From: Alistipes sp.
GTDB lineage: Bacteria > Bacteroidota > Bacteroidia > Bacteroidales > Rikenellaceae
Direction of reading: 5' to 3'
Assembly (NCBI GenBank): GCA_017502025.1
Contig: JAFVVS010000047.1
Span: forward strand, 1 to 37,975
DNA length: 37,975 bases
In this document: piece after piece, positions 5,664 to 31,145 of the stretch
Layout: the number at the start of each line of letters is the position of its first letter
Numbering within the stretch: position 1 is the stretch's first letter
The notes under the pieces: model-generated
The model's database searches: none
What the model was told of the DNA's origin: nothing
The model's input: only the letters and a program-made list of their open reading frames with translations
Position numbers and translations under genes: made by a program

Positions 5664-5695
5664 TTGACAACCCCTATTTTCGGGTTATATATTTG
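5664..5695 (+). promoter_or_regulatory. Promoter of the phage-type cassette
   Basis: TTGACA at 5664-5669 and TATATTTG at 5688-5695, with 21 bp between the TTG and the -7 box. This is a full match to the Bacteroidetes housekeeping promoter. It predicts an RNA start near 5702 and a leader of about 150 nt. It is the only strong promoter I see before the cassette. Confidence 0.7.
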
Positions 5696-5722
5696 CACCG
5701 TCAATCGGCGCTAATCGACACA

Positions 5723-5760
5723 AGGTTTTCAACAATCGGCGTTCTGCTGTTAAAAACCTT
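5723..5760 (+). promoter_or_regulatory. Hairpin in the leader of the phage-type cassette
   Basis: AAGGTTTT pairs perfectly with AAAACCTT, and an inner AACA/TGTT pair extends the stem. The left arm lies between two copies of CAATCGGCG. There is no T-run after it, so it is more likely a regulator-binding or RNA-control site than a terminator. Confidence 0.45.
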
Positions 5761-5855
5761 ATCCACACCCCAATTTGCTGACCTTTCGGAACATTTCTCG
5801 TGTTTTCGACAGTCACGAACAATTTATTAACACACTTAACAACATTTTTCAACCT

Positions 5856-6260
5856 ATGAATCGTGCCTTACTATGCGGTGCGATAGAGGGGTTGGTATCG
5901 CAGTACGGCTACCATTTTCATCTGAATGACGAGGCGTACTACCCGACCGTCATCTCTCGCTATCCCGCAGCCTTTATGAGTCAGCCCGAATTCGAGAGTA
6001 TCGAGGGGCGACAACACGGACGAATAAGCTACAAAGTGACACTGCGACTTGCTCACCAAGGGGCAAAACTCGCCCCGGCGGAGCGAAGTGAGCTTCTCGG
6101 TCGGATGGAGCAGGAGCTGATTGAGATCTTTGTCGCCCTCTCGAAGGCGGAGTGCGTGGCGGTGGTAAATGAACTCACCATATCACCCTCGGCTCAGCCG
6201 ATAGATAATCACGGAGCTGTTTCGCTCGAAGCAAAAGCCAATGTAACCACAATCTTTTAA
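5856..6260 (+). CDS. First gene of phage-type cassette; possible tail-terminator/head-tail joining protein
   Basis: 134 residues, alpha/beta, with no signal peptide or membrane helix. Size, position before other tail-type genes and the C-terminal pattern (ELIEIFVALSKAECVAVVNE, then SLEAKANVTTIF) resemble small tail-completion proteins of Bacteroidetes siphophages, but there is no decisive motif. ATG 5856 is chosen because the upstream part of the open frame lies within the untranslated leader; ATG 5775 would add 27 residues. The next gene starts 22 bp downstream. It is co-directional with all genes through 14802. Function is inferred from context. Confidence 0.6.
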   Translation: MNRALLCGAIEGLVSQYGYHFHLNDEAYYPTVISRYPAAFMSQPEFESIEGRQHGRISYKVTLRLAHQGAKLAPAERSELLGRMEQELIEIFVALSKAECVAVVNELTISPSAQPIDNHGAVSLEAKANVTTIF

Positions 6261-6282
6261 CCCTTCAAAAAGCGATTATCAA

Positions 6283-7248
6283 ATGAAGATAGAGAAAATT
6301 TCAGAAAATTTTGCCCCTCTGCACGAGGGCATTCTCTTCGGCATCGACACCGAATGCGAAGAGCCAACCGACATCGAAGTGAAGATTATAGAGATGGCAA
6401 CAGGCGAGGTTGTAGCCACCAAACTGCTCCGCAACACGGTGGCAACAACGATAAATATCGCCCCATATGTGGAGATTTTGACGGAGTATGCCCCCACTAC
6501 ACACCGCCAAACCACCTTCACGGAGGCGCCAACTGCCTCGTATAAGATTTGCGTAGGCGACATCGAATCGGAGGAGGTTGTCGTGTCGGTAAATCGTTGC
6601 AAAATCGGCTCTGCGCCTACCATTGTGGCATCACTTCCCACCACTCGCCATATTGCCCGAGGGGAGAATGACGAGGTGCTGATTAGGGCGGAAAGAGGTA
6701 AGAGTATCCGAGCCGAGATTGCTGCCGATACGGGCGAGTCGCTCCACTTGGAGATCCAGACCGCTTCGGGTATGGCAATACTAACCCTTGCTACCGACGA
6801 CTTCGAGGGAGCGATATCCTCGCTCGATGTTGCACTCTACTGCGAGGAGGAGATCTTCGGCTCGCTCCACTATGCGGTAAAACCCTACCTCAAAACAGCC
6901 ACCCGCCTGGCGTGGTTATCCGACAGCGGAGCGATAGAGCGATACTCGTTCCCGTCATCCTACAAGGCGAAACGCTACGCCAAGAAGAGGGTTATATCGA
7001 CCATTGACGGCGTGAAGGCTTCGCAGTCGCACGCCAAGCAGTTTATCTCGCTCTGCTCCCGCATAGAGCCCCGAGCAACGGTCGAAGCGGTGGCTCAGCT
7101 TGCCTCATCACCGAAGGTGTGGGTGGAGCAGGATGACAGGTGGCAGTTGGTGGAGGTTGTAACGCCCGAAATAGAGTACAACTTCTTTGGCGAGCCGAGT
7201 TTCCTCCACCTCGATGTCTGCTTGTGGCAGAAGGAGGTTGGTCTATGA
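6283..7248 (+). CDS. Phage-type structural protein, likely tail associated
   Basis: 321 residues, acidic in the N-terminal half (many Glu/Asp), apparently beta-rich with repeated short strands, no signal peptide and no membrane helix. The C-terminal third (about 205-320) is more basic (SYKAKRYAKKRVISTIDG). It precedes the large hub-like protein and its TGA overlaps the next start codon in ATGA, indicating translational coupling. In Bacteroidetes phages, genes here encode distal tail or fibre components; I cannot identify a named domain. Codon use looks like the host genes. Confidence 0.6.
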   Translation: MKIEKISENFAPLHEGILFGIDTECEEPTDIEVKIIEMATGEVVATKLLRNTVATTINIAPYVEILTEYAPTTHRQTTFTEAPTASYKICVGDIESEEVVVSVNRCKIGSAPTIVASLPTTRHIARGENDEVLIRAERGKSIRAEIAADTGESLHLEIQTASGMAILTLATDDFEGAISSLDVALYCEEEIFGSLHYAVKPYLKTATRLAWLSDSGAIERYSFPSSYKAKRYAKKRVISTIDGVKASQSHAKQFISLCSRIEPRATVEAVAQLASSPKVWVEQDDRWQLVEVVTPEIEYNFFGEPSFLHLDVCLWQKEVGL

Positions 7249-9614
7249 TAGCGTTATGGATTGACGAGCAGAGGTGCGATATCGACCACCTACCCACCAT
7301 ACCTATCAACTTCGACAGCTCCACCCTGGCCAATGTCGAGGGGTCGAGAAGTGGTCGTGAGATAGAGTTGGTATTGCCTGCAACACCCGCAAACAATGCC
7401 ATATTCGAGGTGTCGTGCGATCCACACGCCACAAAGCGCTTCAATATGGAGCACCACACAGCCCGCATCGAGAAGGAGGGTGTGGAGATCTTCGCAGGAA
7501 CGGCATATCTGCTCGATGCGACGATGAGTAACGGCGCAATCAGCCAATACACCATCCGCATAAGCGAGGGTGGCGCAGAGTGGTTAGATGATGTGGTCTA
7601 TGGCAAGTTATCCGATCTGGATATCCCCTTTTCGGGAGAGTTGAACATTGCGACCATAGCCGAGTCGTGGGAGGGAGAGCGGTCGGTGCGTTTTCTGCCG
7701 GTCTATCGAGGTAACTATCAGCGAGATTACTCCTCGACATCCTCGCTCCCCGTCGAGCGAATGATGCTGACCGACGACTACCACCCATTCATATCGATTT
7801 CCGATATGGTCAAAGCGATGTTTGCAAAGTCGGGCTACACGCTTCGCAGCAACTTCCTCGACAGCGAGTTGGGGCGTTCGCTCTATATGAGTGGCGACTA
7901 CGCTCGCACCGACAACGCCAATGCTAAGGCAAAGTGCGACTTCTTTGCCCGCAGGTCAAAGGAGGGTGTCGCCACCGCCGACCACGCCGGTATGGTATAT
8001 GCCTCGAACGACTTTGCTGCGCACACAATAGGCCCTATTGTCGATACGGCAAACCCCGAAGCGCTCGATAGCAATGGCGTAAAGATGAGCGACACATTCT
8101 GCCTATACAACTCATTCGTCAAGAACGATGCGGGAAACATCTGCTTCAAGCCGAAAGTGGCGTGTAAAGTGGGATTTATGCTCCACCTCGAATACTCCAC
8201 CGAGTATCGCATCCTTTCGAGAGAGCGATTGTGCGGTTTCGACACCTTCGTAGGGTTGAACTCGGAGCAAATTCAGATACCGCTCGCCAACACCTATCAC
8301 GACTACCGAGCGGAGGCACAAGCGAACTTCCAATATCGGGCACTCGTCTTCGACCACACCAAAAATCGCCAATATCGACTATCGGCAACGCTTCCCGATG
8401 GGACAACGGTTGTGGTGCATAATTGGTCCTCTCGCTCGGCATTGATAAACACTCCGTCGCAGGTTCCGACAAGGTTCATTTTGACCTATCGTGATAGCGA
8501 TAGCGACACTTGGGGTCTCTACACCAAGGATTGGGCACTCTATCCGGGGTATATCAACGAAGAGGGAATGGTGGATGTGGTGATGGATGTACGCCTTTCG
8601 CCACAAGATATTTCGGCAGGCGAGAGCTTCGTGCTGGACAAGTTCTGCTTTGGTGGCGCAGAGCAAGGTATGCAGATTAAAGTGGGTACAGGTACCTCAT
8701 TGCGACCATTCTTCACAACCGTGCCTGGCTACAACACAATGTTGGAGTTCAAGGATATCGCCCCTCGCAACATTCGCCAAATAGACCTGCTCACGGCCCT
8801 TGGCGAGATGTTCAACCTCGCCTTCTACACCGACCGCATCCGAAAGGAGTTGCATATCGAGCCATTGGAGTCGCTCTATCACGACGGGGTGGTCGATTGG
8901 AGCAATCGTATCGACCTGTCGGGCGAGATGAGAATAGCGGATGCAAGCATAGATTTGCCACAAGATTTCATCCTCGCCTACCTCGACAACGACCTCGCTA
9001 CGCAGGCGTTTAACAGGGAGAATGCTACCACGCTCGGAAGGTGGAGCTTCCGCAACCCACTCTACGGCACCAAACGCTCGTCGAAGCGACTCGGAAGCAG
9101 ACTCTTTACCACCACTCTCAACACCTCCAACATTCTCGGCAGTGCCCCCTCTGCGTCAATTATGCAGGTGGGAGATATCGGTGGCGAAGAGGAGAACTTC
9201 GAGGTCGCATTCACTCCACGAATTGTCTGCTACAAGGGGATGCGTACTCTGCCCAACGGGGAGAGCTGGGGCATCGCAACACGCATCGACCGCTACCCCT
9301 ATGCCGCCTTTGTCGATGAGGAGAGCATAAATCTCTGTTTCGAGAAGCGCAACAACATCGAGGGGCTCAACCGCTACTATCTGCCTATGCTGCAACGGCA
9401 GCAAGAGAGCCGAAGAGTTACGCTTGACCTCCGTCTTACAACCGCCGAAATTGCCACTCTCTTTACCGCCGATGGTCGAAAACCATCTCTGCGAACACTC
9501 TTTCGCATCAACATTCAGGGAGAGAGTCTGCCATTTCGCCTTGCCAAGATAGAGCATTGGAACGCCGAGAGCAATATCGTGCGATGCACCTTCGAACAGG
9601 AACTTAACAACTAA
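7245..9614 (+). CDS. Large phage tail hub/baseplate-like protein
   Basis: 789 residues starting at ATG 7245, coupled to the previous gene by an ATGA overlap; an upstream in-frame start at 7140 would lie inside that gene. The N-terminal ~110 residues resemble the start of large tail proteins of Bacteroidetes phages (LWIDEQRCDIDHLPTIPI, then SGREIELVLPATPANNAIFE, then FAGTAYLLDA), a hub-type beta domain. The middle contains MVKAMFAKSGYTLRSNFL and, near 530-560, IDLLTALGEMFNLAFYTD, a pattern also seen in hub proteins. There are no membrane helices. It is the largest cassette protein, and no tape-measure protein accompanies it. The hub role is inferred from pattern similarity. Confidence 0.65.
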   Translation: MIALWIDEQRCDIDHLPTIPINFDSSTLANVEGSRSGREIELVLPATPANNAIFEVSCDPHATKRFNMEHHTARIEKEGVEIFAGTAYLLDATMSNGAISQYTIRISEGGAEWLDDVVYGKLSDLDIPFSGELNIATIAESWEGERSVRFLPVYRGNYQRDYSSTSSLPVERMMLTDDYHPFISISDMVKAMFAKSGYTLRSNFLDSELGRSLYMSGDYARTDNANAKAKCDFFARRSKEGVATADHAGMVYASNDFAAHTIGPIVDTANPEALDSNGVKMSDTFCLYNSFVKNDAGNICFKPKVACKVGFMLHLEYSTEYRILSRERLCGFDTFVGLNSEQIQIPLANTYHDYRAEAQANFQYRALVFDHTKNRQYRLSATLPDGTTVVVHNWSSRSALINTPSQVPTRFILTYRDSDSDTWGLYTKDWALYPGYINEEGMVDVVMDVRLSPQDISAGESFVLDKFCFGGAEQGMQIKVGTGTSLRPFFTTVPGYNTMLEFKDIAPRNIRQIDLLTALGEMFNLAFYTDRIRKELHIEPLESLYHDGVVDWSNRIDLSGEMRIADASIDLPQDFILAYLDNDLATQAFNRENATTLGRWSFRNPLYGTKRSSKRLGSRLFTTTLNTSNILGSAPSASIMQVGDIGGEEENFEVAFTPRIVCYKGMRTLPNGESWGIATRIDRYPYAAFVDEESINLCFEKRNNIEGLNRYYLPMLQRQQESRRVTLDLRLTTAEIATLFTADGRKPSLRTLFRINIQGESLPFRLAKIEHWNAESNIVRCTFEQELNN

Positions 9615-9618
9615 AATT

Positions 9619-9903
9619 ATGCAGAACAAACGCAAACTACTTATCTCACTGCTCGATAGAATCGAACAAAACAATCTCACCTCTGCCGTCGAGCAGATGT
9701 GGAACGAGGGATTACTCGACCGCACCGCCGTCGAACGACTCTATATCGAACGAGAGGTCGGTCGCCGAGTGCGTGCCGGCGAGAGCAAGACAAAGGCTAT
9801 CGGGCAGCTCTCCGAGGAGTTATCCTGCTCCTACGAAAAGGTGCGTGCTGCCGTCTATTACAAAAACAAAATTAAGGGTAAAACGAATGGAAACAGTTAT
9901 TAA
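9619..9903 (+). CDS. Small helix-turn-helix protein of the phage-type cassette
   Basis: 94 residues, mostly helical and basic. Residues about 45-80 (GESKTKAIGQLSEELSCSYEKVRAAVYYK) look like a helix-turn-helix in which the second half is the recognition helix, reminiscent of Mor-type activators or small-terminase DNA-binding domains. ATG 9619 is 4 bp after the hub stop codon. Its end overlaps the protease start by 17 bp. It is the only possible DNA-binding protein in the cassette, so it is a candidate for its regulator or for DNA recognition in packaging. It is too short and generic for a firm call. Confidence 0.6.
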   Translation: MQNKRKLLISLLDRIEQNNLTSAVEQMWNEGLLDRTAVERLYIEREVGRRVRAGESKTKAIGQLSEELSCSYEKVRAAVYYKNKIKGKTNGNSY

Positions 9904-10756
9904 AATCACAAACGAAGCCTCCATCTGCACCATCGACATCGAGGGTGTAATCGGGCTCTCCGAGAGCGAACAGTTCGCCCCCACCACCCACAGTATCGCC
10001 ACCTACGAGCGATTGAGCGAGGAGATCGAGCGTATCAAGGCGATTGATGCCGAAGAGGTTGTCGTAAATATCCGCTCGACAGGAGGAGATGTGAATGATG
10101 CAATGCTCATCTATGAGGCTCTCGTTGCACTCAACAAGCAAATCACCACCCGTTGTTACGGTTATACCGCCTCGGCTGCCACAATCATTGCACAAGCAGC
10201 GAGCGTCGGCTGTCGTGAGATTGCCTCCTCGGCGCTATACCTTGTGCATATGTCGAGCAGTGCCATCGAGGGAAATGCCACCGACCTGACCGAGCGAACA
10301 GAGCTCTTAAAGAAGACCGATGAGAGAATTGCATCGCTCTACGCCCTGCGCTCCGGTCGATCAAAGGAGCACTTCGAGGCTCTTATGGCCGAAAATAGCG
10401 GTCGAGGTCGCTGGCTCTCGCCCGAGGAGGTCGTCGAAGCGGGGCTTGCCGACCGAATCATCGGTGGCGAGGAGTTCACAAAGCGAGCAAACCTCTTCGA
10501 GAGGGTTAAGGGGTGGTTTATCCCCTCGAAGCAGGAGCAGAATGAGGTTGCACCAACCTGCGACATAAACATCTTGCACCTGCCCGAGAATACTCTCTCA
10601 TCATCCTCGGCAATAGCCTTCGAAGAGGGGCAGAGCCGTATCAAAAAGAGCTCTATTATGACAAAGGAGGACCCTTCACTCGAAGGTCACGCCCCATCGC
10701 ACAACTCTTTGGCGTATGCCGAAGATGTGCAAAGCATCAAAGCCCGAGGTTTGTAA
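9887..10756 (+). CDS. ClpP-like prohead (head maturation) protease
   Basis: 289 residues. Residues about 1-195 have the ClpP/crotonase-type serine protease fold used by many HK97-like phages to trim the capsid scaffold. The oxyanion region RSTGGDVNDAMLIYEAL is at 63-79, the nucleophile Ser96 lies in YTASAAT, and His121 in LVHMSSS, a Ser-His spacing of 25 as in ClpP. The third triad position looks changed: the segment aligned with the ClpP ERDRFLSA reads GRGRWLSP, with Gly174 where Asp is expected. The C-terminal ~85 residues are low in conservation and could be a scaffold. ATG 9887 overlaps the HTH gene by 17 bp. The capsid gene follows after 48 bp. Confidence 0.8.
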   Translation: METVIKITNEASICTIDIEGVIGLSESEQFAPTTHSIATYERLSEEIERIKAIDAEEVVVNIRSTGGDVNDAMLIYEALVALNKQITTRCYGYTASAATIIAQAASVGCREIASSALYLVHMSSSAIEGNATDLTERTELLKKTDERIASLYALRSGRSKEHFEALMAENSGRGRWLSPEEVVEAGLADRIIGGEEFTKRANLFERVKGWFIPSKQEQNEVAPTCDINILHLPENTLSSSSAIAFEEGQSRIKKSSIMTKEDPSLEGHAPSHNSLAYAEDVQSIKARGL

Positions 10757-10804
10757 TAACCTCGGCAAAAACAACCAAACAACAACTAAAAACACTTTGA
10801 AATT

Positions 10805-11785
10805 ATGATTATCGAAAACTCAAAAACTTACAATGTAAATGAGGTTGAGAACCTCTTTTTCCGTCCATCATTTTGTGGCAAATCGGCCGAGGAGTTGGGT
10901 ATCCGTATCCTCTACAATATGCCTATGCCGACCAAAATTCCGGTATTCTACCACCACAACAGCATCCTCAGAGAGTTCTCGTCGGGCTGGCAGGGCGATG
11001 CCGCAGGCGAGTTGCAGGAGACCGAGATTGCAATGACAAAATTGAAGGCAGAGAATGCCTACTCGGCAGAGACGTACTTCTCTTCGGTGTATGAGTTGCT
11101 CACCAACTCGGCGGAGATCAACCTTGGCGACTTGACCGGTACCGACCTCGAAAAGGCGGAGACCGAGCTCTTCCGTCGTGCAATCTGCGATAGCATCTAC
11201 GCCACAATGTGGTTTGGCGATGAGAGTGGCGACATCTCGGACTTCTCGGGCTTCAACGGATTCTTGCGCAAAATTGTCAATATCAGAGAGGTCGACAACT
11301 CCGAGGCTCCGGTAAGTGTATTGAACGAGGTTGTAGAGTTCTCTATCAAGGAGCTTATGCAGGAGGTTTGGGTACAAGCAACCCCTCACTTGCGAGCCCT
11401 CTCTACCGATGGACAATTGGCATACTTCGTGAGCTCGGACATCTACGATGCCTACCAATTCTATCTCGACGAGAAGGGTTTGGCAAACATCACCGGCGAG
11501 GGAAATGGTCGCCCTATGCTCTACTATCACGGCATTCCTGTGGTGGAGCTCCCGGCGAGTCAGTACGGACTCCACCGTGCGCATTCGTTCTGCATCCTTA
11601 CCGACCGTCGCAACCTTGTCTTGGCATTGAACACAGCCGATTCGCCTGAGAAGGAGATTAAGATGTGGTACAATCCCGACGAGATGGAGAACCGCCAGCG
11701 TGTAGTATTCCTCGCAGGTACGGCAGTTGTCGATCCAGAGCTTGTTTCGGCATATATCTTCGATAACGGAGTAGTATTGTTGTAA
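10805..11785 (+). CDS. Major capsid protein candidate (HK97-like, phage-type cassette)
   Basis: 326 residues directly after the prohead protease, the usual place of the major capsid gene. There is no signal peptide or membrane helix. The order of features fits an HK97-fold coat protein of the kind seen in Bacteroidetes prophages: a flexible N-terminal arm, an extended central domain (KAETELFRRAICDSIYATMW), and a C-terminal part where RPMLYYHGIPVVELP and HSFCILTDRRNLVLAL match the common strand and P-domain pattern before a closing beta segment (DPELVSAYIFDNGVVLL). The stop TAA overlaps the next ATG by 1 bp. Identification is by context and pattern, without a single diagnostic motif. Confidence 0.78.
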   Translation: MIIENSKTYNVNEVENLFFRPSFCGKSAEELGIRILYNMPMPTKIPVFYHHNSILREFSSGWQGDAAGELQETEIAMTKLKAENAYSAETYFSSVYELLTNSAEINLGDLTGTDLEKAETELFRRAICDSIYATMWFGDESGDISDFSGFNGFLRKIVNIREVDNSEAPVSVLNEVVEFSIKELMQEVWVQATPHLRALSTDGQLAYFVSSDIYDAYQFYLDEKGLANITGEGNGRPMLYYHGIPVVELPASQYGLHRAHSFCILTDRRNLVLALNTADSPEKEIKMWYNPDEMENRQRVVFLAGTAVVDPELVSAYIFDNGVVLL

Positions 11786-12267
11786 TGAAGACAACCTCGA
11801 ACTACAAGCCTGTTGGAGGGGTGGAGAGCGTGGCTCTCTACCCCACCGATGCGGTGGTGACGGCACTCTTTTCAAGCGATGGTTGCGAGGTTGAACTCTC
11901 GGGTGTTCCCATCGAGGTGCCACTCTTGGAAGATTGCTCACAATATGAAGAAAAGTCCCATTCGGAGAGGGGCTCAACCTCTGTTTCGCACCTGCTCCAC
12001 CTCGTGGCAGAGAGAGGCAATGCCCAAGCGTGGATGGAGAACGACTTTCTCGAACAGGCAACCTTCGAGGGCTTCGTTGCAGTAATCGCCTTGTGCGACG
12101 GTCGCCACCTTTTGGCGGGATATTCGGCTCTGTTGGGCAATGAGCAGCCACTGCGACTCGAATCCCTCACCTCCACATCGGGTAAATCTCTGGGCGATAT
12201 ACCTTCGGTAACACTACGACTTATGGCGCACGATGCCGACTTCTCGCCCATAATCCACAACATCTAA
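11785..12267 (+). CDS. Cassette protein of unknown function between capsid and portal genes
   Basis: 160 residues, acidic, no signal peptide or membrane segment. It starts in the TAATG overlap with the capsid stop codon, so translation is coupled and the product is probably needed in proportion to capsid. Residues 70-125 (LVAERGNAQAWMENDFLEQA, then FEGFVAVIALCDGRHLLAGY) look like a compact alpha/beta domain. It could be a capsid decoration, connector or scaffold protein. I do not recognise a family. Confidence 0.55.
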   Translation: MKTTSNYKPVGGVESVALYPTDAVVTALFSSDGCEVELSGVPIEVPLLEDCSQYEEKSHSERGSTSVSHLLHLVAERGNAQAWMENDFLEQATFEGFVAVIALCDGRHLLAGYSALLGNEQPLRLESLTSTSGKSLGDIPSVTLRLMAHDADFSPIIHNI

Positions 12268-12280
12268 ACCGACATACAAT

Positions 12281-13507
12281 ATGGAAAAAGCAAAGAGAAA
12301 AAACATAATTTGCACCTCGGCACAAAATAGTGCCGATGCACTCTATGCCCACGCCTCGACACCCGTCGAGAACAAAGCTTTTTGGCGTTGGGGCACCGAC
12401 AACAATCTGCCCGAAGCGTTGGCGCTCCTATCTCGACGCTCGACCGCCCATCGTCGCATCATAAACGACAAGGCGGACTACATCTCGGGCAAGGGATTTA
12501 ACTATGACGGAACGGTGCCGTTGTTGGATAATATTGTGAAGCGGGCAAATGGCGAGGGTGAGTCGTTGCGACAGATTTTGAACAAGTTGGCATTCGACAA
12601 GTCGCTCTTCGGTAACGCCTTTTTGGAGGTGGTGACCGACGAGGAACACAGCTTCCTCTCGCTCTATCACCACGATGCCTCCCACTGCCGCATTGCCAAA
12701 GGCTCGCAACACATACTCCTGCACCACAATTGGCGCAATTTCCGCCCAAGCGAAGCCCTTTCGTTACCACTCTACCCCACTTTCGAAAAGCAGAGCGACG
12801 GCACTCTCCGCTCGATAATCCACTATAAGGACTACGAGCCTATGTTCGAGCACTATGGAGTACCTCAATATATCGCAGGTATGAATGTGTCGGCAATAGC
12901 CTACAAGACCGACCGTTGGAACATCGCCCGATTGGATAACTCGTTCCAACTCTCGGGTGTAATGATGATTGACAATGCGGTCGACAGCGAGGAGGAGGCT
13001 TCGAAGTTGGCTCGTATGGCAGAGCAACGCTTTGCCGGCAAACCTGGTCAGGTAATGTTCATCATCCGTGACGAAAGCTCCGACGATAACTCCCGCTTCA
13101 TACCGCTCGAATCGCAGAACGATGGCGATTGGAAGGCGTTGCACGACCAAGCCACAAGCGATATTGTGGTGGCACACTCGTGGTTTCGCTCGTTGAGTGG
13201 TCTGGACTACTCGACAGGTTTCAGTGCCGAGCGCATTCTGCACGAGTATGAGGTGGCTCTCAACACCGTTATCCTCGGCGAGCAGAGCGAACTCTTGGAG
13301 CCTATAACCCACGCCATAGGCACGATTTTGCAGATAGATTGCTCCTCGCTCGAAATTATCAACCGCCCACCGACACGCTCAAAGCCTGTCTATATGAAGG
13401 TGTGGGAGGCTCGCAAGGCCGACGGCTTGGATTACGACGAGAGCGATGCCGAGCAGCAGAAGTTTCTTGCCGAGTTGGGCAAAAGCACCATTAAATCAGT
13501 TGATTAA
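12281..13507 (+). CDS. Phage portal protein
   Basis: 408 residues, with the features of the dodecameric portal that forms the DNA gate at a capsid vertex: an N-terminal region with FWRWGTDNNLPEALALLSRR and HRRIINDKADYISGKGF, a central part with LNKLAFDKSLFGNAFLEVV and WNIARLDNSFQLSGVMMIDN, and a helical stem or crown toward the C-terminus (SAERILHEYEVALNTVILGE). The opening pattern of checking for a few repeated helices plus a GKGF loop is typical of Bacteroidetes phage portals. ATG 12281 is 13 bp after the previous stop and the next gene follows after 3 bp. A portal normally works with a terminase, which is not in this window. Confidence 0.82.
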   Translation: MEKAKRKNIICTSAQNSADALYAHASTPVENKAFWRWGTDNNLPEALALLSRRSTAHRRIINDKADYISGKGFNYDGTVPLLDNIVKRANGEGESLRQILNKLAFDKSLFGNAFLEVVTDEEHSFLSLYHHDASHCRIAKGSQHILLHHNWRNFRPSEALSLPLYPTFEKQSDGTLRSIIHYKDYEPMFEHYGVPQYIAGMNVSAIAYKTDRWNIARLDNSFQLSGVMMIDNAVDSEEEASKLARMAEQRFAGKPGQVMFIIRDESSDDNSRFIPLESQNDGDWKALHDQATSDIVVAHSWFRSLSGLDYSTGFSAERILHEYEVALNTVILGEQSELLEPITHAIGTILQIDCSSLEIINRPPTRSKPVYMKVWEARKADGLDYDESDAEQQKFLAELGKSTIKSVD

Positions 13508-13510
13508 CCT

Positions 13511-13984
13511 ATGAAAAATCTAATTACGAATGAACAAGTTATTTCGTTGGCTTTCGGCGACGGCGAGTATCTGTCGCCAGAAGTTATCCTCGATTCGGAC
13601 ATCGCTTTGGCAGAAGATCGCTACATTGTGCCGGTGGTGGGAGCAGAGCTACATCAAGCGTTGCTTGACGGCTCTTATCCGACTCTGCTCGACGATTTTG
13701 TCGCACCTGCGCTCGCTATGGCAGTCCGCACAGTAGTTCAACCTGCGCTGAATGTCCGCACAGGTCAGGCAGGGTTGCAAATCTCCTCATCGCTGCGAGC
13801 CGACTCTTCGACCAAAACGGCTATGCAGTCGTTGCAGAAGTCGTTGCGCCTGCGTCGTCAGGCTCTGTTAAGGCGATTGTCGAACCACCTGAAAAACCAC
13901 GCATCGGAGTTTGCCGAATACGACCCAAGCCACGATGCAATGCAAAAATGCTCGATCGATGGAGGCTATATACAGATGCGCTAA
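13511..13984 (+). CDS. DUF6712-like phage head-completion protein
   Basis: 157 residues. The N-terminus MKNLITNEQVISLAFGDGEY followed by ILDSDIALAEDRYIVPVVGA matches the small head-tail connector-type proteins (DUF6712) that follow portal genes in many Bacteroidetes prophages. The protein is all-helical with a basic patch, KSLRLRRQALLRRLSNHLKNH, near 108-128. It starts 3 bp after the portal stop. Its 3' end overlaps the holin start by 26 bp. The connector function is inferred from position and resemblance. Confidence 0.68.
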   Translation: MKNLITNEQVISLAFGDGEYLSPEVILDSDIALAEDRYIVPVVGAELHQALLDGSYPTLLDDFVAPALAMAVRTVVQPALNVRTGQAGLQISSSLRADSSTKTAMQSLQKSLRLRRQALLRRLSNHLKNHASEFAEYDPSHDAMQKCSIDGGYIQMR

Positions 13985-14393
13985 TGGTGCCATTCTCGGC
14001 TTGGCAGCGCTCTTCGCACCGATAAAACCGCTGATTTTGTGCGCCCTATCGTTTATCCTCGTCGACTTCGTAACGGGAGTTCTCGCCTCCCGTTGTGAGG
14101 CGAAACAGAGGGGCGAGCAGTGGTACTTCTCCTCGCACGAGGCGTGGCACACCATCCGCAAAGCTGGTTTTGTATTGCTGACAATCTCGATGAGTTGGCT
14201 TATCGAGTGGTGCATCCTCGACTTTGTGACGCTCAACCTCACCCGCATACTTACGGGGGCGATATGCGGTGTGGAGATGTGGTCATTTTTGGAGAACGCC
14301 TCGGTATTGAGCGATGCCAAGTTGTTCGAGTGGTTGCGCAACTATGTTAAACGAAAAGTAGAGAAGGAGATTGGAGAGTATGAAGATGAGTAG
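13959..14393 (+). CDS. Phage holin (holin family 4/Cph1-type)
   Basis: 144 residues with three hydrophobic segments: near 8-32 (ILGLAALFAPIKPLILCALS, continuing FILVDFVTGVLAS), near 64-84 (AGFVLLTISMSWLIEWCIL), and near 92-110. The D-FVTGVLAS motif after the first helices and the HEAWHTIRKAGF segment are typical of toxin-secretion/phage-lysis holins, which open the inner membrane so that lysozyme reaches the wall. ATG 13959 is chosen; the in-frame ATGs at 13911 and 13938 lie deeper in the previous gene. It is followed by the lysozyme in an overlapping pair, a standard lysis module. Confidence 0.82.
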   Translation: MEAIYRCANGAILGLAALFAPIKPLILCALSFILVDFVTGVLASRCEAKQRGEQWYFSSHEAWHTIRKAGFVLLTISMSWLIEWCILDFVTLNLTRILTGAICGVEMWSFLENASVLSDAKLFEWLRNYVKRKVEKEIGEYEDE

Positions 14394-14802
14394 AGGATTA
14401 CGCAACAACAACCCTGGAAATATCCGCCTCGGGAACTTCCGCTACAAGGGCGAGAGAGCAAAGAGCAGCGACTCGGCATTTCGTCAATTCGAGAGCGTGG
14501 AGTGGGGCTACCGAGCGGTGTTTGTGTTGCTGCACACCTACGCCACAAAGCGAGGTTGCCGCACCCTGCGAACGATGATTAACCGCTATGCTCCGCCTAC
14601 GGAGAACTTCACCGAGGGGTATCTCCGTTGCGTAACAAACGCCACACACCTCTCGCCCGATGAGCCTATTTCGACCACCGACAGAGCTGTGATGACCGCT
14701 ATTGTGGCTGCAATGTCGGCAGTCGAAAACGGCATAAAGGCGAATATGAGGGATGTTTGGCGTGGTTGGGAACTTTTTATTGCAGATTTCTCGGAAAAAT
14801 AG
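14386..14802 (+). CDS. Virion-type lysozyme (structural protein P5-like)
   Basis: 138 residues starting MSRGLRNNNPGNIR, the hallmark N-terminus of the phage structural/lysozyme P5 family of peptidoglycan-degrading enzymes. Further conserved stretches are AFRQFESVEWGYRAVFVLL, INRYAPPTENFTEGYL and VMTAIVAAMSAVENG, the typical length and order. ATG 14386 fits the family; 14380 would add two residues, and both overlap the holin stop codon. No signal peptide is present, so access to the wall would depend on the holin or on packing into the particle. It is the last gene of the cassette; the comEC promoter begins inside its final codons. Confidence 0.85.
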   Translation: MSRGLRNNNPGNIRLGNFRYKGERAKSSDSAFRQFESVEWGYRAVFVLLHTYATKRGCRTLRTMINRYAPPTENFTEGYLRCVTNATHLSPDEPISTTDRAVMTAIVAAMSAVENGIKANMRDVWRGWELFIADFSEK

Positions 14803-14811
14803 TTATCTTTG
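14780..14811 (+). promoter_or_regulatory. Promoter of comEC
   Basis: TTG at 14780-14782 and TATCTTTG at 14804-14811 with a 21-bp spacer, the same spacing as the cassette promoter. The predicted RNA start falls at about 14817-14820, next to or on the ATG, so the mRNA would be leaderless or nearly so. The -33 box lies inside the end of the lysozyme gene. Confidence 0.65.
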
Positions 14812-14819
14812 TGATAACT

Positions 14820-16280
14820 ATGAGGGGCTTTTACGAAAATATTGCAGAGCGTATCGCAAAGATACCTATGGCGATGGTGGTCGTACCATTTGCCGTGGGT
14901 ATCTTTTTTGCTGATGCGGTGCAGAGCCCGATATGGCTCTTATTTCTCGCCTGTGTAGTGTCGCTGATTGGCGTTATCACGCTCACAAAGTGGTGGCAGA
15001 ACTGCGCACTCTTTGCGATGATCTTTGCCGTGGGCGCACTCCTCCACTCCATCTCGTATCGAGGTGAGGTGGAGTACGGAAAACCTGTCGAGATGCTCCT
15101 CAAAGTCGAAACATCGTCTGCCGAGCGTGAGGGTTACACCTCTGCCGAGGCGACGATAGAGCATTGTGCCGATGCCTCGCTCAACACCCGCAAAGTGGTC
15201 GTTTGGGGCGACTCGCTCACCCACTTCCGAGCCGGCGACCGCCTTCGCCTGACCACCCCTATCCGCCCATTCCGAGCCGAGCGAGAGCAGTATGCCCGAC
15301 TGATGCACCACCGAGGCTTTGTGGGCTCGGTGTCTGTAAATCATCGTGCCACCTACGAATATATTCCTGCTGAAAAGCGGACTCTGCACGATTGGGCGGT
15401 CGAGCGACTGCGAGGGGCTATACCCGAGGGCGATGGTCGTGCCGTAGTCTTGGCGATGACCACAGGCGAGAGGGGCGAAATCCGCACAGAACTGCGTCAG
15501 CACTACTCGGCAAGTGGAGCGTCGCACCTCTTGGCAGTGTCGGGCTTGCATATCGGCATTGCCTTTATGCTCGTAAACATCCTACTCCTGCCGTTGGTGC
15601 TGTTGCGCTACGGCAATCTGCTGCGCTCGATTTTGGCAATAGCGTTGATTTGGCTCTATGTGTGGCTCTGCGGTATGTCGCCAAGTGCGGTGCGTGCCGC
15701 CATAATGTTCTCGTTACTGCAATTTTCGCTCTCGTCGTTGCGAGAGTATGCCAGCATAAACATCTTGGCAGGTACCGCCTTTGCAATGTTGGCTCTCGAT
15801 AGCCACCTTCTCTTCGATATCTCGTTCCAACTCTCGTTTATAGCCGTTGCAGGCATTGTTTTATGGGGTATGCAACTTTATTGCATAGCCTCCACCCGCT
15901 TCAAAATCGTCAATACAATCGTTGGAATTATGATTGTCGGCATCGCTTCGACCATAGCGACAATGCCGTTGGTGGCAAACACCTTCTCGACCATCTCGTT
16001 GGTCGGAATTTTGATAAACCCTGCCGTCATTCTTCTCGCCAACATTGTGGTTTTGTCGGGCATCGTGGCGTTGGCATTGCCATTTATGGGCGTGGTGGCG
16101 GAGGTGGCAGCCGAGTGGCAAAACCGAGTGGTCGAGTGGGCGGCATCGTTGCCATACGGACACTTCGACATCGCTATATCGGAGGGTGCGATGTGGGGCA
16201 TATACGCCATATTCGCCATCGTAACACTACTATTTTGGTTGCTACCAAAACGAGAAAAAGAGCAGAAAATTGAGGGATAA
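14820..16280 (+). CDS. comEC: ComEC/Rec2-family DNA uptake channel protein
   Basis: 486 residues of polytopic inner-membrane protein that in competent bacteria carries single-stranded DNA into the cytoplasm. The first hydrophobic helices at 15-60 are followed by a soluble OB-like region and the competence domain. The conserved SHLLAVSGLHIGIAF is near residues 231-245, and LCGMSPSAVRAAIMFSLL follows about 50 residues later. The C-terminal metallo-beta-lactamase domain of long ComEC proteins is absent, which is common in Bacteroidetes. ATG 14820 is chosen because the -7 box lies just upstream; the frame is open to 14757 but that part overlaps the lysozyme gene. The next gene starts 17 bp downstream with its own -7 box. 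Confidence 0.9.
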   Translation: MRGFYENIAERIAKIPMAMVVVPFAVGIFFADAVQSPIWLLFLACVVSLIGVITLTKWWQNCALFAMIFAVGALLHSISYRGEVEYGKPVEMLLKVETSSAEREGYTSAEATIEHCADASLNTRKVVVWGDSLTHFRAGDRLRLTTPIRPFRAEREQYARLMHHRGFVGSVSVNHRATYEYIPAEKRTLHDWAVERLRGAIPEGDGRAVVLAMTTGERGEIRTELRQHYSASGASHLLAVSGLHIGIAFMLVNILLLPLVLLRYGNLLRSILAIALIWLYVWLCGMSPSAVRAAIMFSLLQFSLSSLREYASINILAGTAFAMLALDSHLLFDISFQLSFIAVAGIVLWGMQLYCIASTRFKIVNTIVGIMIVGIASTIATMPLVANTFSTISLVGILINPAVILLANIVVLSGIVALALPFMGVVAEVAAEWQNRVVEWAASLPYGHFDIAISEGAMWGIYAIFAIVTLLFWLLPKREKEQKIEG

Positions 16281-30236: not shown

Positions 30237-31145
30237 ATGATTGGTGCTTTTATAACACATATTCAGGCCGAAAAACGGTTCTCTGCGCTCACCGTGCGCA
30301 ACTATCGACACGACATCGAGTCGTTTGCGGCTTGGTGTGCCTCGAATACGGGCATTCCGCTCGACAAATTCGACTTTACAAAGGTTACAACAGAGGATAT
30401 ACGGGAGTGGATAATCTACCGTATGGAGCATTGCGAGTTGGGAGCAGCCTCGATGAACAGAGAGCTCTCATCGTTGCGCAGCTTCTATCGCTATTTGCGC
30501 ACTCACGGCGAGATGACACAAGATATTTTTGGTCGCATATCGGCTCTAAAAACTGCACGAAAATTGCCGTCGTTTGTGCCGGAAACACGAATGGAACCAC
30601 TGCTCGAAAATATACGCACCGAGAGCAAAACCGACGACCTCGTAGAGCAGCGTAATGCGCTGATTATCGCACTCTTTTACAGTTGCGGCATCCGCCTTGC
30701 CGAGTTGCAGGGGATGCGCTTCGGGAACATCTCGGCAGACAGAGCGACGCTCCATATCCGAGGTAAGGGCGACAAACACCGAATAATACCCATTCTGCCC
30801 GAGTTGAGCGAACGAATCGAGCGATATATGGGGCTACTTCGAGGGCTGGATATTTCGACATCGGCAGAGGCTCCGTTGATAGTGTCGCCACAGGGTGAGC
30901 CACTCTCCCGATCGACCATTCAGCGTGTGGTGAAAGCGAAGCTGAGCGAGGCGAATGTGCAGGGCAAAAAATCGCCCCACATCTTGCGCCACACCTTTGC
31001 AACACACCTACTGAACAAAGATGCGGATATGCGTGATATACAAGAGCTTATGGGACACTCATCGCTCAAAACGACGCAGTGCTACACACACAACAGCATA
31101 GCGCAATTGCAGGAGGTGTATAGGCGGGCGCATCCGCATAAATAA
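30237..31145 (+). CDS. xerC: Tyrosine recombinase XerC/XerD
   Basis: 302 residues. Resolves chromosome dimers at dif with its partner. The N-terminal SAM-like core-binding domain (1-90) has the usual YRHDIESFAAWC and ASMNRELSSLRSFYRYL. The catalytic domain has the nucleophile and its helpers: Arg in YSCGIRLAELQGM, Lys in IRGKGDKHR, HILRHTFATHLLN (HxxR), LMGHSSLKTTQCYTH with the second His and the Tyr. The protein is complete and of normal length. Its position directly before the hibernation factor gene is standard in Bacteroidetes, so it is a housekeeping Xer and not the integrase of the phage-type cassette. XerC versus XerD is not separable by eye. Confidence 0.9.
   Translation: MIGAFITHIQAEKRFSALTVRNYRHDIESFAAWCASNTGIPLDKFDFTKVTTEDIREWIIYRMEHCELGAASMNRELSSLRSFYRYLRTHGEMTQDIFGRISALKTARKLPSFVPETRMEPLLENIRTESKTDDLVEQRNALIIALFYSCGIRLAELQGMRFGNISADRATLHIRGKGDKHRIIPILPELSERIERYMGLLRGLDISTSAEAPLIVSPQGEPLSRSTIQRVVKAKLSEANVQGKKSPHILRHTFATHLLNKDADMRDIQELMGHSSLKTTQCYTHNSIAQLQEVYRRAHPHK

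Follow-up and report, generated by a model that had tools for sequence, protein, structure and literature searches.

Introduction

The gene transfer agent (GTA) of Faecalibacterium, FpGTA, shows that a gut anaerobe can have a GTA encoded by two operons and apparently devoid of a tail. According to the parts of the report on which we draw, its operons lie about 125 kb apart in one strain, operon I is present in all twelve Faecalibacterium genomes examined, and structural genes are accompanied by separate lysis genes in the absence of a visible tail (PMC12946183). Here we describe a cassette of phage-type genes in Alistipes sp. (family Rikenellaceae), which lies on a contig of 37,975 nucleotides (JAFVVS010000047.1; the entire contig, C30, is called the window below), together with a lone terminase gene elsewhere in the same genome (2.06 Mb, 85% complete). 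The organisation is alike, but FpGTA belongs to another phylum and its large terminase subunit (TerL) sits with portal and capsid, whereas the TerL of Rikenellaceae stands alone with an S24-type repressor. Moreover, particles with about 9 kb of DNA have been demonstrated for FpGTA only (PMC12946183), and the Rikenellaceae system is likened to it by organisation. We propose that the two loci are a vertically inherited GTA-like system derived from a captured temperate phage, and that this system probably works as a GTA.

RcGTA of Rhodobacter capsulatus has its TerL inside the head-tail cluster, includes a tape measure gene and is governed by regulators unrelated to those found here. Its genes are spread over five loci, and the entry of its DNA is aided by ComEC, ComF and ComM, as stated in the accessible text of PMC10883770. 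Multi-locus organisation, as well as a small terminase subunit (TerS) that lacks a DNA-binding domain, also appears in the part of a GTA review that we consulted (PMC11841831).

Among phages, BS-TP3 (Bacteroides, PQ571276.1) and a prophage in the Bacteroidales genome G411 share with the cassette the order ClpP protease, capsid, two genes, portal, a gene in the DUF6712 position, a long gene, holin and endolysin. Unlike the cassette, both carry gene sets of phage type: an integrase is annotated in BS-TP3, and the G411 prophage has TerS (GP3_package), a Terminase_3-type TerL and a likely tape measure. The Bacteroides fragilis phage B40-8, compared by its TerL only, is alike in that protein and differs in being a complete phage of 44.9 kb. 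We found no earlier report of the Rikenellaceae system in the open-access literature, a coverage that leaves out subscription papers and preprints.

Results

The cassette consists of eleven consecutive, intact open reading frames (ORFs) of phage type, g1 to g11, on the + strand from 5775 (likely ATG at 5856) to 14802. It lies between mqnA and comEC with one promoter ahead of all eleven genes, and with the likely ATG starts the gaps or overlaps between neighbouring ORFs are at most 48 bp. Across 268 Rikenellaceae genomes (110 of them of high quality; 22 genera), a portal match is present in 243, including 106 of the high-quality genomes and 17 genera, mostly as a single copy. For the comparison of cassettes we used the best 80 of 136 related places in named genomes (78 titled Alistipes or Rikenellaceae, one Tidjanibacter and one Bacteroidales bacterium), and gene order was counted in the 58 loci with sufficient flank on either side. 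The order of the detected core genes (g2, g3, protease, capsid, portal, DUF6712, holin and lysozyme) is kept in 58 of 58. All eight reach the presence threshold of 75% of profile length in 41 of them, the misses being chiefly holin and lysozyme.

The ratios of nonsynonymous to synonymous substitution rates (dN/dS) are low. Against the nearest relative, locus L032, which is the least saturated pair, they range from 0.07 to 0.24 across ten cassette genes (portal 0.07, capsid 0.20, g3 0.15), compared to 0.12 for the host gene comEC and 0.07 for the gene next to it. Seven rows were dropped as misaligned or saturated (mqnA against L033, L034 and L037; g1 against L034 and L037; g2 against L040; g4 against L041). 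In the retained rows g2 and g3 have ratios of about 0.1-0.24, and those of more distant pairs are rough because dS often exceeds 1. The mean column identity of the three cassette proteins that were aligned is 76% for the portal, 60% for the capsid and 47% for g3. No long perfect direct repeat flanks the cassette; among the 20 largest of 50 repeat families the maximum is 32 nt, and imperfect. The G+C content of the cassette is 52.7%, compared with 49.3% on its upstream and 50.8% on its downstream side.

The cassette is maintained by purifying selection, with dN/dS, though approximate, like that of host genes, and its distribution, flanks and gene order mark it as a phage-derived structural cluster inherited with the host. 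Because it is present nearly family-wide, in kept gene order and with host-like dN/dS, it is not a passing prophage; that it was domesticated and has been retained by selection is well supported. A first-pass annotation, made from the window alone, had proposed as much, and neither of the outcomes that it set against its own proposal came true: the cassette is not sporadic, and no long perfect direct repeat flanks it. That annotation was also right that the genes are intact, co-oriented and spaced by 50 bp or less, but it counted ten of them. The dN/dS comparison that it called for gave the low ratios reported above.

Family matches support six assignments which the annotation had already made. 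The ClpP-type prohead (head-maturation) protease g5 (9887..10756) matches Pfam at 1.3e-26 and phrog_94 at 1e-36, and reaches 97 bits with NCBIfam NF045542, under the cut-off of 120. The major capsid protein g6 (10805..11785) matches phrog_1623 at 3.1e-5 and sister capsids at 1.1e-12; of 41 homologues, 34 match phrog_1623 (best 2.3e-12) and ten match phrog_212, a major head protein. For the portal protein g8 (12281..13507; phrog_11226, 1.1e-20), the sole NCBIfam match is the PBSX portal TIGR01540 at 70 bits, under its cut-off of 166. The DUF6712 protein g9 (13511..13984; Pfam 2.2e-9), a head-tail adaptor candidate, is found in 58 of 58 loci. It is followed by the holin g10 (13959..14393, where 13959 is the likely ATG after a check of start codons; Phage_holin_4_1, Pfam 1.3e-10; 46 of 58) and the endolysin or lysozyme g11 (14380..14802; phrog_873, 5.7e-41; 48 of 58). 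In the copy at locus L114 (1379-2152 and 6549-8579) only the C-terminal part of the protease gene is kept and the ClpP domain is lost, the capsid carries extra C-terminal sequence, and an additional gene of 257 aa precedes g2.

The remaining five proteins (g1, g2, g3, g4, g7) gave no convincing match in the family libraries. By position only, g1 (5775..6260; 134-161 aa depending on the start; 34 of 58 loci) is tail-terminator-like; library searches returned no phage family for it. Likewise by position, g2 (6283..7248; 321 aa) would be a distal tail protein and g3 (7245..9614; 789 aa) a tail hub or tip; both occur in all 58 loci. The profile of g2 weakly matches its positional counterpart in the G411 prophage, and that of g3 matches prophage counterparts in G411 (1.1e-11) and in another Bacteroidales genome, G395 (8.8e-112). 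The helix-turn-helix (HTH)-like g4 (9619..9903; 94 aa; 39 of 58) possibly serves recognition or regulation. Its profile has weak matches (8e-5 to 0.0064) to ORFs in four sister loci, in three of which the ORF lies directly 5' of TerL, and the fourth stretch shows no TerL. Possibly a neck or tube protein, g7 (11785..12267; 160 aa; 34 of 58) weakly matches (8.9e-5) the gene preceding the portal in phage contig L116. A sequence search of the PDB, at the limits used, returned nothing for portal, capsid or g3.

Reading of the translated ORFs, with family searches on the cassette proteins only, revealed no terminase, tape measure, integrase or replication gene within the cassette or next to it; nor was a contractile sheath or tube gene recognised among its genes. 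Capsid and portal are both present, unlike in tailocins, which lack capsid or portal, and the combination of integrase and sporadic distribution expected of a prophage or a capsid-forming phage-inducible chromosomal island (PICI) is not seen.

The missing terminase lies elsewhere. In the same genome, a lone intact large terminase of 465 aa at C89:17666-19060, among neighbours that read as host genes, matches phrog_38 at 3.1e-86 and TIGR01630 with 70.9 bits, above the cut-off of 41.65, and is 50.3% identical over 97% to the TerL of phage B40-8. By protein search TerL is present in 243 of the 268 genomes, 106 of the 110 high-quality genomes and 18 of the 22 genera. A PF03237 search matched 60 of 63 genomes, mostly once, and the Alistipes genome twice. 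Its other match is on contig C13 (L112), a phage contig binned with this genome, whose terminase we rejected as a partner of the cassette since translations read there include portal-like and capsid-like genes of its own. A search of the same 63 genomes with phrog_2, which had led us to the view that no TerL is conserved, is overturned by the PF03237 matches. It matched 62 genomes, mostly weakly, the weak frames of about 340 aa being taken as PhoH (checked in the Alistipes genome only), and missed the lone TerL there, a phrog_38 protein. In the PDB, TerL found one terminase (8dgc, E 0.028), ranked below 13 repeat-protein matches taken as chance. The first-pass annotation had reported terminase, tape measure and integrase as missing, which holds within the window but not, for the terminase, in the genome.

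We read 40 TerL loci, the best 30 of the protein search and ten chosen stretches; 38 are distinct, L166/L176 and L172/L194 being duplicate places. Wherever aligned (39 loci, 37 distinct), the motifs PPQHGKS, LDD, ESNNGGRG and D-A-x-D are invariant; we take the first to be Walker A, LDD to belong to the ATPase, and the other two to the nuclease domain. A divergent repressor with XRE and Peptidase_S24 domains (Pfam 5.6e-14) adjoins TerL in 39 of the 40 loci (37 of the 38 distinct ones), the exception, L168, reading as a prophage; the repressor of L171 is only 32% alike. The Thr-Ala-Gly, Gly-Asp-Ser-Met and Lys positions of the repressors, presumably the residues of LexA-type self-cleavage, are kept in at least 90%. 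A homologue of a small ORF, o105, occurs in 35 of the 39 non-prophage TerL loci and lies directly upstream of TerL in 34. Among the 40 loci, TerS-like matches are confined to L170 and the prophage L168, and o105 and g4 are candidates for a TerS. In six pairs dN/dS is 0.044-0.056 for TerL and 0.040-0.093 for the repressor. Translations near the C89 TerL also contain further low-complexity stretches.

Do the two loci belong together? In a hand tally of the two separate presence searches, 232 of the 268 genomes have both portal and TerL, 11 portal only, 11 TerL only and 14 neither (p 1.6e-10, an association inflated by incomplete genomes); the 110 high-quality genomes divide into 104, 2, 2 and 2 (p 0.006, inflated by shared ancestry). 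Both genes are absent from genera g3, g6, g8 and g9 (8 genomes, with one each in g3 and g6). The bit scores of portal and TerL correlate (Spearman 0.63, 40 pairs entered). In G229 and G227 a gap of about 4 kb separates the two loci, which share a strand; some of the genes in the gap read as rnhB and an AraC-type regulator. The system has its own large terminase at a separate locus, with a functional link that we infer from the co-occurrence, and its genes occupy several loci in which translations show no integrase or replication genes. This accords with the earlier suggestion of a GTA with its terminase elsewhere, a particle that would pack and deliver DNA. The high-quality genome G161, which lacks a TerL match, has one in-frame TAG in the portal frame, and may reflect joint decay or an assembly error. 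G232 has two portal matches, the best 85% identical, and a TerL score resembling that of the distant genus g20; its portal contig may be misbinned.

Relatives were also sought outside the family. The portal profile matched 15 of 392 sampled Bacteroidales genomes, six of them Rikenellaceae, and six of the other nine matches are strong; eight of nine sister stretches checked carry a Terminase_3-type TerL. The g3 profile matched 8 of 247 genomes and TerL 8 of 218, Rikenellaceae accounting for three matches in either case; two of the other TerL matches, on examination, lie in phage-like gene sets. Those sister elements that were read are compact: terminase and genes resembling TerS and HTH proteins run in one direction, and protease/scaffold, capsid, portal and DUF6712 run away from them in the other. 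Such elements at L137, L139, L141 and L143 (genomes G418, G562 and G406) carry lectin-like or fibre-like genes after DUF6712; no integrase or tape measure was noticed in the stretches read, and they are possibly another reduced packaging element. G418 has two portal matches and G618 four.

In the G411 prophage, TerS, TerL and smaller genes are followed by counterparts of g2 and g3, a long protein (likely a tape measure, though free of family matches), ClpP protease, capsid, two genes, portal, DUF6712, a long gene and holin. Besides g3, cassette profiles match its protease (5.5e-12), capsid (6.9e-5), portal (4.8e-8), DUF6712 (1e-7) and holin (9.3e-9), while those of g1, g4, g7 and lysozyme find nothing in this prophage. 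A short contig of G395 shows protease (2.3e-86), partial capsid (6.6e-42) and the g3 counterpart, then an open frame of 1,467 codons that we take for a tape measure gene. Tail genes before head genes, an order that had seemed unusual in the window alone, is therefore most likely ancestral, since the G411 prophage, the G395 contig and phage BS-TP3 show related orders. The cassette would be such a phage minus terminase, tape measure, fibre, integrase and replication genes.

The cassette promoter (5664..5696, + strand; TTGACA..TATATTTGC), presumably of the Bacteroidota -33/-7 type, had already been called strong. In 42 of 65 loci the pattern TTGAC-N16..28-TANNTTTGC stands ahead of the cassette. 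With only 49 occurrences on both strands of their 1.27 Mb, it is too rare elsewhere in these loci for the promoter at 5664 to be a chance match. Downstream, 17 bp 3' of the cassette, lies comEC (14820..16280, +), the host competence DNA channel, named from its translation. In 20 of 58 loci it comes directly after the final gene of the cassette, on the same strand and at a spacing of 14 to 220 bp, and this adjacency holds even at comEC identities of just 37-46%. Across the 80 loci the flanks differ, corA being somewhere in 40 and mqnA in 35. A tyrosine recombinase at 30237-31145 resembles host XerC/D by reading of its translation, which was not subjected to a family search, and between two host genes at 1230-1502 a short ORF contains repeated MQNAKC-like words.

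Discussion

We suggest that an ancestor of most Rikenellaceae captured a temperate phage, of which two vertically inherited chromosomal loci are left. Locus A, the cassette of the window, would provide the prohead (capsid, ClpP-type protease, portal and DUF6712 adaptor) as well as a short distal tail (g2, g3) and the lysis proteins. Locus B would provide the large terminase, its small companion ORF and the divergent S24-type repressor. Judging by the domains of the repressor, damage or stress may release it through self-cleavage; that it also controls expression of the cassette would be a guess. TerL, acting in trans, would pack headfuls of the host chromosome into proheads through the portal, and holin and lysozyme would release particles, which are probably short-tailed, for delivery of their DNA. 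The system therefore probably works as a gene transfer agent. The neighbourhood of comEC is suggestive because uptake of RcGTA DNA goes through ComEC (PMC10883770, in the text available), and comEC may be linked to the particle system. The fuller picture, of the first GTA in Bacteroidota, nearly family-wide, short-tailed, damage-inducible and encoded by two loci (an S24-repressed terminase and a cassette partly placed before comEC), with production and uptake maybe linked, is tentative and falls a little short of probable.

Several points weigh against a working GTA, besides the inflation of the association between portal and TerL. Particle, packaged DNA and expression are deduced from gene content. 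Among high-quality genomes, G161 and G169 have the portal but no TerL, and G137 and G174 TerL but no portal. Holin or lysozyme is absent or short in 16 of 58 loci, and the sole tape-measure family searched, PF20155, matches 8 of 63 genomes, sporadically. The cassette promoter pattern is found at just 2 of 40 TerL loci, so that the promoter is no demonstration of common control. The two loci may differ in origin because this TerL is nearest to those of other phages such as B40-8 while the G411 TerL is of Terminase_3 type. Finally, a study of human faecal viromes (PMC12946183, in the portion that we draw on) names families for 23 of 25 GTA events and does not include Rikenellaceae, although these were abundant in total DNA; this speaks against strong activity in its three donors.

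Could the genes serve something else? Particles made of capsid, portal and lysis proteins may hold host DNA and kill relatives without delivering genes, as in the non-injecting PBSX described in the text we used (PMC12946183). The sub-threshold PBSX portal match, the lysis genes of most loci and tail proteins less conserved than the portal (g3 47% against 76%), as for a diversifying tip, all fit this idea. Nevertheless, the cassette shows no recognisable contractile sheath or tube gene, and whole-gene dN/dS for g2 and g3 gives no sign of overall positive selection, so we consider a killing particle unlikely. Alternatively, the cassette could build a DNA-free protein shell or serve another cell function, with TerL retained on other grounds. 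In most genomes whose coordinates were compared the loci lie apart, they do not have the promoter in common, and 11 genomes hold each gene alone. On the other hand, both genes are missing together from four genera, and among the three aligned cassette proteins conservation is highest in the portal, which is known to serve the passage of DNA; such a shell is quite unlikely.

That the cassette is a prophage, either in decay or mobile to this day, or a satellite of the capsid-forming PICI kind, is very improbable. Cassette copies do appear in virus catalogues, and the L114 copy has lost its ClpP domain; yet no integrase or replication genes were recognised, dN/dS is low, no long perfect repeat flanks the cassette, and presence in 106 of 110 high-quality genomes, mostly as one copy, already contradicts it. 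IMG/VR lists six copies as viral contigs (L114, L115 and L148-L151), and two GenBank phage records from human faeces match parts of it: MT838805.1, 72% identical over the last 89 portal residues, reads as a piece of an Alistipes-type chromosome, and MT838736.1 has a g3 match at 36.6%. The collection holding both has no TerL match at 60% identity or more, and we have not drawn on them as evidence of packaging.

Such records are a warning that domesticated loci of this kind get catalogued as viruses. In total faecal DNA few families are more abundant than Rikenellaceae, and Bacteroidales figure in the list of gut groups that exchange genes at the highest rates (PMC12946183, in the parts consulted). 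If the two loci of Rikenellaceae do work as a GTA, a GTA-like system would have arisen independently in a further phylum, one whose terminase has been split off and which has a candidate switch of SOS type.

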